DNA of 57,034 nt from a virus: the IMG/VR virus record IMGVR_UViG_3300036886_000048, positions 1 through 57,034 of that record. One strand, given 5' to 3'. Of the stretch, positions 4,530 to 57,034 are shown piece by piece (position 1 is the first letter of the stretch; the number at the start of each line of letters is the position of its first letter). The notes under the pieces are model-generated. The model was not told the DNA's origin and searched no databases. It saw nothing but the letters and a program-made list of their open reading frames with translations. A program made the translations under genes and the position numbers.

Positions 4530-5624
4530 ATGGCCTCACCTTCAACTTGGGTTAATCGACAAGCTAACGGACTGCCGTTGTTGGTGGATATGCGCCATGA
4601 CGATGTACCGATAGTCAACCAGTTATCAGCCAACTCATGCTCTGCTAATTCCGCAGTTGACGTGATGGAAATATGGGAAGTATGGCACGGCACGCCTTGC
4701 ACCTTGTCCCGGTTGTTCCAGTATTACAACGAACGGACTTACACTCCGGGCGCACTGAACAGTGACAACGGCGCAGAGTCTGGCAGCGTGTTCAAGTCCG
4801 CTGCTGAATTAGGAGTGTGTCTGGAGTCTACATGGCCTTATAATCTTGCAACCGTCCAGACTAAACCATCTCAGGCAGCGTACATGGAAGCGCAAAGCCA
4901 CAAGATTACCAGTTACAGTATGCTACCGCAGGCACAACTGAAAGTCGCATTGGCTATGGGTTATCCTGTACGAGTAGCCATGAACGTTCGAACCGGCTTC
5001 TTTGACGTGTACGGCAGCAAGTCTCAGCAGACGGCACAATTCGCAACTTACCTTCAAACTCCTGTTGTTGGCGGTCATGATATGGTGATCCTTGGCTATG
5101 ACGCAAGAGATAACACCATCCTGATCCGTAACTCATGGGGGACAGGTTGGGGTGATGGTGGCTACTGTTACATGCCTGAGTCTATCCTACTGCAAGACGA
5201 ATTCAACCTTTGGGTTGTCACCGGGTACAATGGTTACACTATGCCTGCATTCTGGACACCTGACAGTACGCCAGTGTCACAGCCCACGGTTGGTGTTTAT
5301 CTTGGCCCCGGAGAACAGTTTATCTCAGCCTGTCCTGCCATGATATACGGCAACACTCCGAGGGGCATGGTCACACTCCTGAAAGCGGCACGGAACAACG
5401 TACTGGATTCGAACATTGGGACATTGGCATTGCCAGACAGAACACTTGAGGACTTGGGACTTCTCCAGCAGGGAAGTTCACTCGAAGTGCGACTGAACGG
5501 TGAACTACTTGCCAGTTTGAACACATCTAACGGTGCAAGTCACCAGTTGATCCTTGCCGATGGAAACCACGTGTTACTTAGGATTAACGCCATAATGACA
5601 CTGGATGGAACGGTAATTTCGTAA
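4530..5624 (+). CDS. Papain-like (C1A) cysteine peptidase
   Basis: A 364-residue protein whose first 235 residues carry the C1A active-site pattern. Gln31 (oxyanion hole) and Cys37 lie in V-N-Q-L-S-A-N-S-C-S-A-N-S. His183 is in G-G-H-D-M-V-I-L-G-Y-D, and Asn201 is in R-N-S-W-G-T-G-W-G-D-G-G-Y. All three catalytic residues and the oxyanion Gln are present, so it should be an active endopeptidase. There is no signal peptide or long propeptide. Residues of about 245-364 form an extra domain that I do not recognise. It has an AGGAG ribosome binding site, is probably transcribed alone and lies directly before the virion genes. Roles could include processing of virion proteins, action on the host surface or an intracellular host target; the sequence does not decide. 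Confidence 0.85.
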   Translation: MASPSTWVNRQANGLPLLVDMRHDDVPIVNQLSANSCSANSAVDVMEIWEVWHGTPCTLSRLFQYYNERTYTPGALNSDNGAESGSVFKSAAELGVCLESTWPYNLATVQTKPSQAAYMEAQSHKITSYSMLPQAQLKVALAMGYPVRVAMNVRTGFFDVYGSKSQQTAQFATYLQTPVVGGHDMVILGYDARDNTILIRNSWGTGWGDGGYCYMPESILLQDEFNLWVVTGYNGYTMPAFWTPDSTPVSQPTVGVYLGPGEQFISACPAMIYGNTPRGMVTLLKAARNNVLDSNIGTLALPDRTLEDLGLLQQGSSLEVRLNGELLASLNTSNGASHQLILADGNHVLLRINAIMTLDGTVIS

Positions 5625-5640
5625 ATAGTTAAGAAAGTGC

Positions 5641-5669
5641 TTGACATTTGTACAGAATTATGAGATAAT
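5641..5669 (+). promoter_or_regulatory. Sigma-70 promoter
   Basis: TTGACA (5641-5646), a 17-bp spacer and GATAAT (5664-5669), with TG upstream of the -10. It drives a 200-nt leader and the virion gene at 5868. Confidence 0.75.
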
Positions 5670-5867
5670 ACAGTGCCTCAAGGAGAGGAATAACAGTTTG
5701 CAACAGCAAACGTCAACCGGGACAAGGCCACAACCAAGTCCCAACCGTAACAAGGCAGCTACCACCCCGCGCACAGTGGGACTTCGAAGCTGCCTTTCCC
5801 GCTCCTAAAGCCGCCTTACGAAATCTATACGCTTCACTAATGCTACACCAAAAAGGAGACTTACGCA
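5670..5867 (+). promoter_or_regulatory. Structured 5' leader with competing hairpins
   Basis: This is a non-coding leader. AAGGCAGCT (5752-5760) pairs with AGCTGCCTT (5788-5796), with an inner CCAC/GTGG stem. GTCCC at 5738-5742 can pair either with GGGAC at 5719-5723 or, as GTCCCA, with TGGGAC at 5777-5782, giving mutually exclusive folds. No U-tract follows. It may control or stabilise the message of the next gene. Confidence 0.4.
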
Positions 5868-6968
5868 ATGAATATTTTTACAATTGGCGATTCGACTGTT
5901 GCTCACGTCGATATGGTTCTTCCCCCCTCAGTGGGTGGAAAAGACCTGTCAAGGATCATCGGGTACATCGAAAACGCTGGAGTACCGTCTGGAGTTGTTC
6001 CTGACTTCATTGGCCAAAAACTGTTTGATACGACCAACCATAACTTTTATTATGCCTACGGACTGTCTGCCGGGAACTGGCGCACTACCACTTCTATCGC
6101 GCTGAGTGCTGGAGAAGTGGCATTCTTGTCTGGAGTAACTGCCGGAACAGGTACAGTGTCTCAGGCACTTGTACTGGATGCAAGTGGCGCAGTTCAGATG
6201 CCTGCAACCGGGACACTTGGTTTGTCCTATGCCGCAGTGAACGCTGCCGGAACCACTCCGGGAACCTATGCGGCCTTGACACACCAGTTGAACTCCGTGC
6301 TGCTGGCTGATAATACGACGGGTGTCGCACTTCCTGCCGCCGTTGGTGGACAAGCCGTGTACATTCTGAATACTGTCCAAAACAAACGCCTTCAAGTTTC
6401 TCCGGTGGCTTCGGGCAATGACCAGATCAACAGCCTGACTGCAAACACTGGCGAATTTTCACTTGCTGCTGGAAAAGGCGCATGGTTTATTCCTACGTCT
6501 GCAACTCAATGGTATGTTGACCGTTCGGTTGAAAACAAACTTGGTGACAACAACGATGGGGCGACTGCTCCTGAAACAATTACCAAAAAGGCCACGATTA
6601 CCTACACAAACTTGGGTACGGCTGGCAAGGTTGACGTGTTGACCCCTGCTTCGGCAACTGCTCAGTATTACGTTTCGAACGTGGTTCTTGTTGGTGGTGG
6701 AACGAGCTTCGGGCCTACAGGCGACAGACTTGTTTCTTTGACCGATGGAACAACAGTCTGGACTACGATTGCCAATGCTGACCTTGAAGCTGCACCATCC
6801 GTTTCACTGCCGTTCGGCAATGCCAAAGTACCGTATCTTACCGGAACAATTACAACGCCAAGTGCAGCAGGCGCACAGATTTACTTCCAGTACAGTGGAG
6901 GAACAACAGATGAAACCACGGCAGGGTCGATTGACTTTTTTGTTACATTGACCAAAGCAACCGTATAA
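5868..6968 (+). CDS. Virion fibre/decoration-like protein
   Basis: A 366-residue protein with a good ribosome binding site (AAAGGAGA). It is rich in Ala, Thr, Gly and Val, with a beta-strand character throughout. The N-terminal segment G-V-V-P-D-F-I-G-Q-K-L-F-D-T-T-N-H-N-F-Y is a pattern I know from the proximal part of phage head- or tail-fibre proteins. The C-terminal half (after about residue 230) looks like a separate beta domain. Its own promoter and long leader suggest abundant synthesis. Which virion structure it belongs to is inference. Confidence 0.6.
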   Translation: MNIFTIGDSTVAHVDMVLPPSVGGKDLSRIIGYIENAGVPSGVVPDFIGQKLFDTTNHNFYYAYGLSAGNWRTTTSIALSAGEVAFLSGVTAGTGTVSQALVLDASGAVQMPATGTLGLSYAAVNAAGTTPGTYAALTHQLNSVLLADNTTGVALPAAVGGQAVYILNTVQNKRLQVSPVASGNDQINSLTANTGEFSLAAGKGAWFIPTSATQWYVDRSVENKLGDNNDGATAPETITKKATITYTNLGTAGKVDVLTPASATAQYYVSNVVLVGGGTSFGPTGDRLVSLTDGTTVWTTIANADLEAAPSVSLPFGNAKVPYLTGTITTPSAAGAQIYFQYSGGTTDETTAGSIDFFVTLTKATV

Positions 6969-42096: not shown

Positions 42097-42130
42097 GCGA
42101 TTTAACTTGGCGAGGGCGGTTAATAAACCT

Positions 42131-42159
42131 TGACTTTTAACCGAAGTTATGGTAAGATG
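42131..42159 (+). promoter_or_regulatory. Rightward promoter of the long RNA
   Basis: TTGACT (42131-42136), a 17-bp spacer and TAAGAT (42154-42159) with TG upstream. It is back to back with the leftward promoter and no protein gene follows before the terminator at 42596. Confidence 0.75.
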
Positions 42160-42349
42160 TATGCAAGGTTGTGAAATTGATTAAATGTTGCCCGACAAAA
42201 CTTAATTGGTATTCGGAACAACAATTTTGCAACCGTTGCCGCATGATCCCATGAGTCGATAGTAGGTGAATGGGAATGGTTCGTTACCGATAAAAGTAAT
42301 CCTCCGAATAACGTGAACGGAGGCGTCTATCGACAAAGCGGCAAGATTT

Positions 42350-42423
42350 CGAGGGGTAGCTCAGTCTGGTAGAGCTGGAGCCTCATAAGCTCAATGTCGC
42401 AAGTTCGAATCTTGCCCCCGCAA
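42350..42423 (+). tRNA. tRNA-Met(CAT), initiator-like, degenerate
   Basis: A cloverleaf can be drawn: acceptor C1-G7/C66-A72, D-stem GCTC/GAGC, anticodon loop CTCATAA, T-arm GCAAG-TTCGAAT-CTTGC, discriminator A73 followed by CC but no encoded CCA. C1 opposite A72 is unpaired, the hallmark of bacterial initiator tRNA. However, the three G-C pairs at the anticodon stem typical of initiators are replaced, and A3-G70 and G27-A43 are mismatched. It is embedded in the long RNA rather than in a tRNA cluster. Confidence 0.7.
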
Positions 42424-42543
42424 CCGAACTTAGACGTTACCGAAAACCGTAGATTACCGGGCAAGCCGCATTGCTACGTCAGTAGGGTAAATCGAAGTTG
42501 ACTTACGCCGGATGGAAAGAATCTGGCACGAATTGCAACAGAG

Positions 42544-42556
42544 AAGGAGGTGATCC
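42544..42556 (+). promoter_or_regulatory. 13-nt complement of the 16S rRNA 3' end
   Basis: AAGGAGGTGATCC pairs without mismatch with the universal 16S tail GGAUCACCUCCUU. No start codon follows at a usable distance, since the GTG within it leads to a stop after four codons. It is therefore not a normal ribosome binding site. Confidence 0.7.
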
Positions 42557-42595
42557 TAGTCTGAACAGACCCGAAGAGAGTCGATTGCAGTTTTA

Positions 42596-42631
42596 GACCA
42601 ACATAATTCCGGTTAGTTGGTCTTTTTTTTT
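42596..42631 (+). terminator. Rho-independent terminator
   Basis: GACCAAC (42596-42602) pairs with GTTGGTC (42616-42622), followed by nine T residues. It ends the long RNA and isolates the helicase promoter. Confidence 0.9.
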
Positions 42632-42649
42632 GCTCAAAAATATTTATGT

Positions 42650-54364: not shown

Positions 54365-54568
54365 ATGAATATGACGCCCGTTGCATCATCGTTTATCGTG
54401 GCGATTGGATATGATCCCGATCAAGCGGTTTGCGCCGTTCAATTCAAGAATGGCGATGTAAAATATTACTCAGGAATCTCGTTAGGCCAGTACCAGAATT
54501 TTTCAGATGCGCCTTCTCTGGGAAAGGCTTTCCCGACAATTCGAGATGCTGCTTCGTCGGTTGCATAA
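54365..54568 (+). CDS. KTSC-domain small protein
   Basis: A 67-residue protein with V-A-S-S-F-I-V-A-I-G-Y-D-P, V-Q-F-K-N-G-D-V-K-Y-Y and the S-L-G-K-A-F-P-T-I-R end of the KTSC domain, small beta proteins found with RNA- or DNA-related partners. Function unknown. Confidence 0.75.
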   Translation: MNMTPVASSFIVAIGYDPDQAVCAVQFKNGDVKYYSGISLGQYQNFSDAPSLGKAFPTIRDAASSVA

Positions 54569-54573
54569 AGTGC

Positions 54574-54602
54574 TTGACTTGCGATTCATTTTGTGGTTTA
54601 AT
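54574..54602 (+). promoter_or_regulatory. Sigma-70 promoter of the second RNA
   Basis: TTGACT (54574-54579), a 17-bp spacer and TTTAAT (54597-54602) with TG upstream. The expected start near 54609 is four bases before the long helix. Confidence 0.8.
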
Positions 54603-54608
54603 GTGTCT

Positions 54609-54825
54609 CAGTAAGTGGTCATTGGCAACTAAGGGTGGACTGCGAGGTTTTCGAGCCAGACGTAATCCGGTTGACAAAAAGAGCGGATAACTAGACCGTG
54701 GCAAGTTTAGGTAAACCGCAGCCCTGACAGCCAAGGATGGGAAGATCATAATGTGCCGGGAAGTACCCGACTAAAATTGATCGTAACAGGATGAACACCC
54801 TAGTTACCAATGACCACTTGCTTTT
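54609..54825 (+). ncRNA. Structured RNA closed by a long terminal helix
   Basis: AAGTGGTCATTGG (54613-54625) is the perfect complement of CCAATGACCACTT (54807-54819), and the helix continues with AACTA(A)GGGTG (54627-54637) against CACCCTAGTT (54796-54805) through one mismatch and one bulge, about 23 bp in all. Inside are GTTT-AGGT-AAAC and CGGG-AAGTA-CCCG hairpins. There is no coding frame of note. GCTTTT follows the helix and may end the RNA, or the RNA may be a leader for the gene at 54852. I do not recognise the class. Confidence 0.65.
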
Positions 54826-54851: not shown

Positions 54852-55094
54852 ATGACGACTATCCAATATCTCACCGACACTGCGAAGGCTTTGGGTGGCC
54901 CGGTAATTATCCTCACGATTATTGCCGCTTTGCTGATAGTATTCGGGCTCACTGGGCGTGCCAATGCAACAACGTTTTCGCCTCTGGCGAGTATTGCCGC
55001 AACGATGGACGACCAACCTGTAACTGCAACCGAACGTTTCAAGAAAATCAAGTTGCCCCAAGTTGTCGAACGTGGGCGTAAGGCCAAGAAGTAA
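54852..55094 (+). CDS. Small membrane protein
   Basis: An 80-residue protein from ATG 54852 with AAAGGA upstream. One strong membrane segment (V-I-I-L-T-I-I-A-A-L-L-I-V-F-G-L, about 13-28) and a basic C-terminal tail (K-K-I-K-L-P ... R-G-R-K-A-K-K). Function unknown. Confidence 0.65.
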   Translation: MTTIQYLTDTAKALGGPVIILTIIAALLIVFGLTGRANATTFSPLASIAATMDDQPVTATERFKKIKLPQVVERGRKAKK

Positions 55095-55128
55095 TCGAAC
55101 TTAAAAATTCCTTATACGAATGAAGCCG

Positions 55129-55156
55129 CCCCCGGTAAATCCGGGGGTTTTATTTT
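55129..55156 (+). terminator. Rho-independent terminator
   Basis: CCCCCGG (55129-55135), a TAAAT loop, CCGGGGG (55141-55147), then TTTTATTTT. Confidence 0.95.
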
Positions 55157-56653: not shown

Positions 56654-57034
56654 TGAAGAAATCGCTGACACAACTCGGAAAAACTGGTTTATACTATATC
56701 TTTGATGGAAATAAAATTTTCGGATCACATAGAGGCTTGCGCGGTGACGTAACATACTTGAGCGGTGACGTAACACACTTGCGCGGTGACGTAACAGGCT
56801 TGCGCGGTGACGTAACAGGCTTGATCGGTGACGTAACACACTTGATCGGTGACGTAACGTACTTGAGCGGTGACGTAACATACTTGAGCGGTAACGTAAC
56901 ACACTTGATCGGTGACATAACATACTTGATCGGTGACGCAACGTACTTGAGCGGTAACGTAACACACTTGATCGGTGACGTAACACACTTGATCGGTGAC
57001 GTAACATACTTGAGCGGTGACGTAACATACTTGC
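56653..57034 (+). CDS. Heptapeptide-repeat protein, N-terminal part (runs off right end)
   Basis: ATG 56653 with AGGAGA upstream. A 28-residue head (M-K-K-S-L-T-Q-L-G-K-T-G-L-Y-Y-I-F-D-G-N) leads into at least 14 G-[DN]-[VIA]-T-[YHG]-L-[SIR] repeats and the frame is open at the end. Position 7 alternates among Ser, Ile and Arg, and position 5 among Tyr, His and Gly, so surface residues vary on a fixed frame. It continues at base 1 with the acidic tail. Function unknown; a fibrous or solenoid protein is likely. Confidence 0.75.
   Translation, partial: MKKSLTQLGKTGLYYIFDGNKIFGSHRGLRGDVTYLSGDVTHLRGDVTGLRGDVTGLIGDVTHLIGDVTYLSGDVTYLSGNVTHLIGDITYLIGDATYLSGNVTHLIGDVTHLIGDVTYLSGDVTYL
56740..57034 (+). 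repeat. 21-bp tandem repeat array, right end
   Basis: Fourteen copies of the 21-bp unit (ggtgacgtaacatacttgag type) up to the last base. The last copy stops after TTGC; the left end resumes at AACAGGC. This is the same array as at 1-150. Confidence 0.95.

Follow-up and report, generated by a model that had tools for sequence, protein, structure and literature searches.

A long-range helix closing a putative 5' leader of a small-membrane-protein message in an uncultured phage

The window analysed here is the complete 57,034-base record of an uncultured phage. Positions 54610-54822 contain a 213-nt element whose two ends pair to form the thermodynamically strongest long-range helix of the window (54610-54637 with 54796-54822). 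The helix begins at a predicted transcription start and stops just short of the ribosome site of a gene for a small predicted membrane protein. Our tentative interpretation, to which we give a probability of roughly 0.45, is that the element is the structured 5' untranslated leader of this gene's mRNA, with message stabilisation as the most likely mechanism and a possible RNase III site in the helix.

Results

Tandem repeats of about 21 bases (GGTGACGTAACATACTTGAGC type), encoding peptide repeats such as GDVTYLS, occupy both ends of the record (56680-57034 and 1-150). Because the same array is found at either end, the record probably represents a circularly permuted and nearly complete phage genome; its ends suggest a circle cut inside a repeat-protein gene. 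The element occupies one of the window's few long intergenic stretches, with the genes for NinB, a RecA-dependent nuclease and SSB all located upstream. Relatives of the phage were sought with SSB, with TerL (as a single sequence and as an alignment) and with the membrane protein, and a sister phage, L084, was the only close one (TerL, 83% identical); a TerL search of bacterial genomes returned none. The features of the region are as follows.

54365-54568: KTSC-domain gene, upstream neighbour of the element
54574-54602, + strand: sigma-70-type promoter read from the sequence (TTGACT at 54574-54579, 17-nt spacer, TTTAAT at 54597-54602)
54610-54637, + strand: 5' arm of the closing helix, with its first base at the predicted +1 (inverted-repeat search, pair probabilities, shuffle tests)
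54641-54664, + strand: interior hairpin 1, predicted by folding only; apex GGUU-UUCG-AGCC
54665-54688, + strand: interior hairpin 2, predicted by folding only; AUCCG/CGGAU, directly abutting hairpin 1
54691-54740, + strand: interior irregular stem 3, weakly predicted by folding only (pair probability 0.45-0.78)
54744-54782, + strand: interior hairpin 4, predicted by folding only; GAUCA/UGAUC, then CGGG-AAGUA-CCCG
54796-54822, + strand: 3' arm of the closing helix (inverted-repeat search, pair probabilities, shuffle tests)
54852-55094, + strand: downstream gene for an 80-aa protein predicted to have one membrane segment (41% identity to its L084 ortholog by alignment)
55128-55148, + strand: intrinsic terminator, probable transcript end (terminator scan; a similar one at the same place in L084)

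A sequence-only reading had proposed a 13-bp perfect helix extended to about 23 bp. The perfect core is real (54613-54625 with 54807-54819), and the full closing helix comprises 26 pairs in three blocks (16+5+5), interrupted by one C.A mismatch and one bulged A. The outer block (54610-54625/54807-54822) has 16 bp including one G-U; the C54626.A54806 mismatch separates it from a 5-bp block (54627-54631/54801-54805), which is followed by the bulged A54632 and the innermost 5-bp block (54633-54637/54796-54800). Folding gives most of these pairs a probability near 1 and the helix an energy of about -43 kcal/mol (-43.4). The arms are separated by 163-170 nt and GCTTTT follows on the 3' side, both in agreement with that reading (about 170 nt, trailing GCTTTT), as is the start of the helix at 54610 against a predicted +1 at 54609-54611. 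Viewed as DNA, 54610-54634/54798-54822 is the top inverted repeat in the window for arms up to 320 nt apart; the terminal inverted repeat measures 25 nt at 88%, and the differences between its arms are all transitions.

The helix had also been called unlikely by chance. This judgement stands for the energy of the full helix and fails for the bare 13-bp perfect inverted repeat, which is ordinary in 57 kb (present in 17 of 40 shuffles). When the 242-nt leader was shuffled with the 5' arm held fixed, the best of 2000 shuffles reached -37.3 kcal/mol, and with any arms allowed the best of 600 reached -32.6 kcal/mol; the real leader scored -42.0 and -42.9 kcal/mol in the same tests. The best helix in six window-wide shuffles had -38.0 kcal/mol. 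Judged thermodynamically, the strength of the closing helix is thus beyond chance. Under a permissive gapped score it is not top-ranked in the window, and a nearly equal helix (-42.2 kcal/mol) lies inside a coding gene at 5121/5321 (region 5121-5360). What makes the closing helix notable is its strength combined with its position in a long intergenic stretch, starting at the predicted +1. The gene containing the other helix (4530-5624, 364 aa) looks by eye like a papain-type cysteine protease. A second long leader, of about 190 nt (5638-5867), lies between a TTGACA..GATAAT promoter and the gene at 5868, and is moderately structured (z -2.5, 40 shuffles).

The fold z-score is -3.9 for the whole RNA including flanks and -6.05 for 54610-54822 (40 shuffles only); the low value for the element comes mostly from the closing helix. 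Inside the helix, folding predicts four helical elements; in hairpin 4 the pair probabilities are mostly 0.94-1.0, with one outer apical pair at 0.65. The interior as a whole (54640-54792) is no better structured than its shuffles, with z = -0.83 on the + strand and -1.29 on the - strand. Given this ordinary folding energy, folding alone does not argue for a functional core.

The promoter upstream of the element was missing from our consensus-scanner list because its -10 box lacks an A at position 2. It places the predicted +1 at the 5' arm, with 54610 as the first paired base. On the other side, 29 nt separate the end of the 3' arm from the ATG of the 80-aa gene, and an AAAGGA ribosome site lies just upstream of that gene; neither a PHROG family nor a Pfam match above cut-off was found for the protein. 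The terminator scan found nothing within the element or just beyond it; the first strong terminator further on is the one past the downstream gene, and GCTTTTCCCCC was rejected as a terminator. An independent small RNA would have its own promoter and its own terminator; here the promoter is present and the terminator is absent. The free RNA of about 210 nt with ends of its own that the sequence-only reading had envisaged is therefore not supported, and the element reads most simply as a structured 5' leader. Folding gives the ribosome site the same accessibility with and without the leader, which makes translational control by direct sequestration unlikely. The ideas of a type I toxin and of an attenuator were rejected for want of a sequestered ribosome site and of a terminator.

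The same place in L084 has a promoter (TTGACA-17-TTTAAT) between the KTSC gene and the membrane-protein ortholog. The distance from its -10 box to the ATG is about 30 nt in all, and the element is absent there. The window therefore has some 213 extra nt separating a promoter and a gene that both phages keep.

We looked for relatives of the element itself in several ways. Rfam (Rfam 15) gave no match at the gathering threshold or at E-values up to 10, in line with the earlier remark that the interior fits no known RNA class; the signatures of a group I intron were also considered by eye and dropped. BLAST against phages, plasmids and E. coli genomes found nothing past one 27-base match (E 0.9). 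The arm pattern occurs in 92 stretches of viral contigs, with one same-strand double and none with arms in opposite orientation, and a longer arm pattern had no match among 84,980 bacterial and archaeal genomes. Three interior patterns had matches in viral contigs sharing the seed alone (16-18 bases), with no further similarity. Short matches 3' of SSB genes in L049 and L013 were suggestive at first, but did not extend; a 13-nt match to the 5' arm in L084 (13685-13697) lies inside an open reading frame and has no second arm. A covariance model of the element, run against the window plus 74 loci, 75 sources in all, and separately against the window and 17 whole phage records, recovered only the element itself and, by its own symmetry, the reverse strand. 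Where a collection permits exact patterns only, most homologues with less than about 80% identity would go unseen, so that missing relatives are not proof of absence. With no homologue found, neither covariation nor a signature of selection is seen.

A different noncoding transcription unit of this phage, about 470 nt long (~42165-42630, in the region 42130-42640), has a promoter, an embedded tRNA-Met (42350-42425) and a strong terminator. Its 3' domain appears to form a three-way junction that recurs in L084 at ~870-1085, where there is no tRNA. Comparison of the two copies reveals apparent compensatory changes, for instance GAC/GUC against GAG/CUC around a CCGA-AGA loop; the L084 copy folds no better than shuffles (z -0.74). 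The unit also contains AAGGAGGTGATCC at 42544-42556, a 13-nt stretch that would pair without a mismatch with the 3' end of bacterial 16S rRNA; L084 has the altered form AAAGGAGTGTGATTCC. With two sequences only, this RNA is a lead rather than proof. Judged by the recurrence of its 3' domain in L084, it is better supported as a noncoding RNA than the element at 54610-54822.

Discussion

Message protection or processing would be the most likely role of the leader. In our model, transcription starts at about 54610 and the leader would be co-transcribed with the gene at 54852-55094. Synthesis of the 3' arm would then lock the first 28 nt into the 26-pair helix, closing a branched loop of about 160 nt; the helix would stop just before the ribosome site, leaving it as open as it would be without the leader. 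In E. coli, a 5'-terminal base-paired leader hinders RppH and 5'-end-dependent RNase E. Primary work by Emory (1992), Bouvet (1992) and Arnold (1998), cited in PMC3997798, reportedly dealt with 5'-terminal base pairing and mRNA stability in this organism. By the same ompA principle, the paired 5' end of the phage message may hinder both the removal of pyrophosphate and the entry of RNase E by way of the 5' end. Being longer than two turns and regular, the helix may also be a site for RNase III, cleavage at which would split off a processed leader fragment and leave a monocistronic message.

The element resembles the 5' stem-loop leaders of the E. coli ompA type in that pairing starts at the +1 or a few nt from it (here at 54610, the +1 being predicted), lies in the 5' untranslated region and leaves the ribosome site open. 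It differs from them in that the pairing partner is about 170 nt away, a large branched loop is closed and the helix is much longer. RNase III stalks, such as those enclosing pre-rRNAs, likewise pair distant arms over more than two turns and join the ends of a structured stretch, and the predicted fold, with 26 pairs, one mismatch and one bulge, has the roughly two turns of near-regular duplex expected of an RNase III substrate. However, the element starts at the +1, so that there is nothing upstream to trim, and folding points to no functional core within it.

A 5' leader is supported by the strength of the helix beyond chance, by its location at the predicted +1 of a promoter that keeps its place ahead of this gene in L084, by the unchanged accessibility of the ribosome site, and by the 29 nt to the ATG with no terminator between and a strong one after the gene. 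Counting against 5' protection, the sister phage manages with a leader of about 30 nt. Known 5'-protecting stems are local hairpins. A short hairpin would shield the 5' end equally well, so that the interior of about 160 nt is not explained by protection, and because the partner strand lies about 170 nt downstream, the 5' end would be exposed until the 3' arm is made. The large interior, explained by neither protection nor RNase III, could still serve to bind a ligand, a protein or polymerase, or could belong to a released RNA.

The element could instead be an independent structured RNA of an undescribed class, with a functional core of four helices, freed by RNase III or another nuclease or ending near GCTTTT, and acting in trans. 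Its size, its closed ends, the predicted multi-helix junction with two abutting hairpins, the lack of an Rfam match and the presence of a second apparent noncoding RNA in the same phage (42165-42630) fit this possibility, which we nevertheless regard as doubtful: the interior is no more structured than shuffles, there is no terminator, BLAST, patterns and the covariance model found no homologue, and the element is missing at the same place in L084. GOLLD, ROOL, OLE, raiA and the phage c4-type RNAs are also noncoding and structured, and several occur in phages, but their definition rests on sequence conservation and covariation seen in many members, whereas the element has no relatives found and no Rfam match. 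That the 213-nt element represents, as its first known member, an undescribed phage RNA class, with a helix from the +1 and a four-helix core, released from the leader or acting within it, strikes us as improbable. The likeness to 6S RNA raised in the sequence-only reading is superficial. A 6S-like RNA binding RNA polymerase would also have about 200 nt and paired ends, but it would have a single large bubble where the element is predicted to have separate hairpins, and a transcript end of its own where the element is embedded as a gene leader. As no Rfam 6S model matched up to E 10 either, we consider this scarcely credible.

Regulation in cis of the downstream gene, by a riboswitch-like, protein-binding or antitermination leader (comparable to the HK022 put RNA, at an operon start), would account for a structured loop placed exactly between the +1 and the ribosome site, and read-through would affect the terminator at 55128. 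This is an unlikely explanation in the face of no alternative terminator, no sequestered ribosome site, no match to Rfam riboswitch models and a target gene lacking a PHROG or Pfam assignment above cut-off. At the DNA level, a MITE-like remnant with terminal inverted repeats may have inserted between promoter and gene, in which case the RNA fold would be incidental. The near-perfect repeat of about 25 bp around an unremarkable interior, its transition-only differences and the absence of the element at that spot in L084 speak for such an insertion. Yet we see no target-site duplication in the flanks by eye and no second copy in the window, the arm pattern is found in none of the 84,980 bacterial and archaeal genomes and is never paired in viral contigs, and the left end falls on the predicted +1; we hold an insertion to be a slim prospect.

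As a candidate for a new RNA class in this phage, the ~42165-42630 RNA near the tRNA gene is the more promising, and the element stays a single example as long as it is without relatives. If real and expressed, the protective leader would give a phage mRNA whose first bases are held in a very long-range helix, and this would be a simple shield of a phage message against the decay enzymes of the host.
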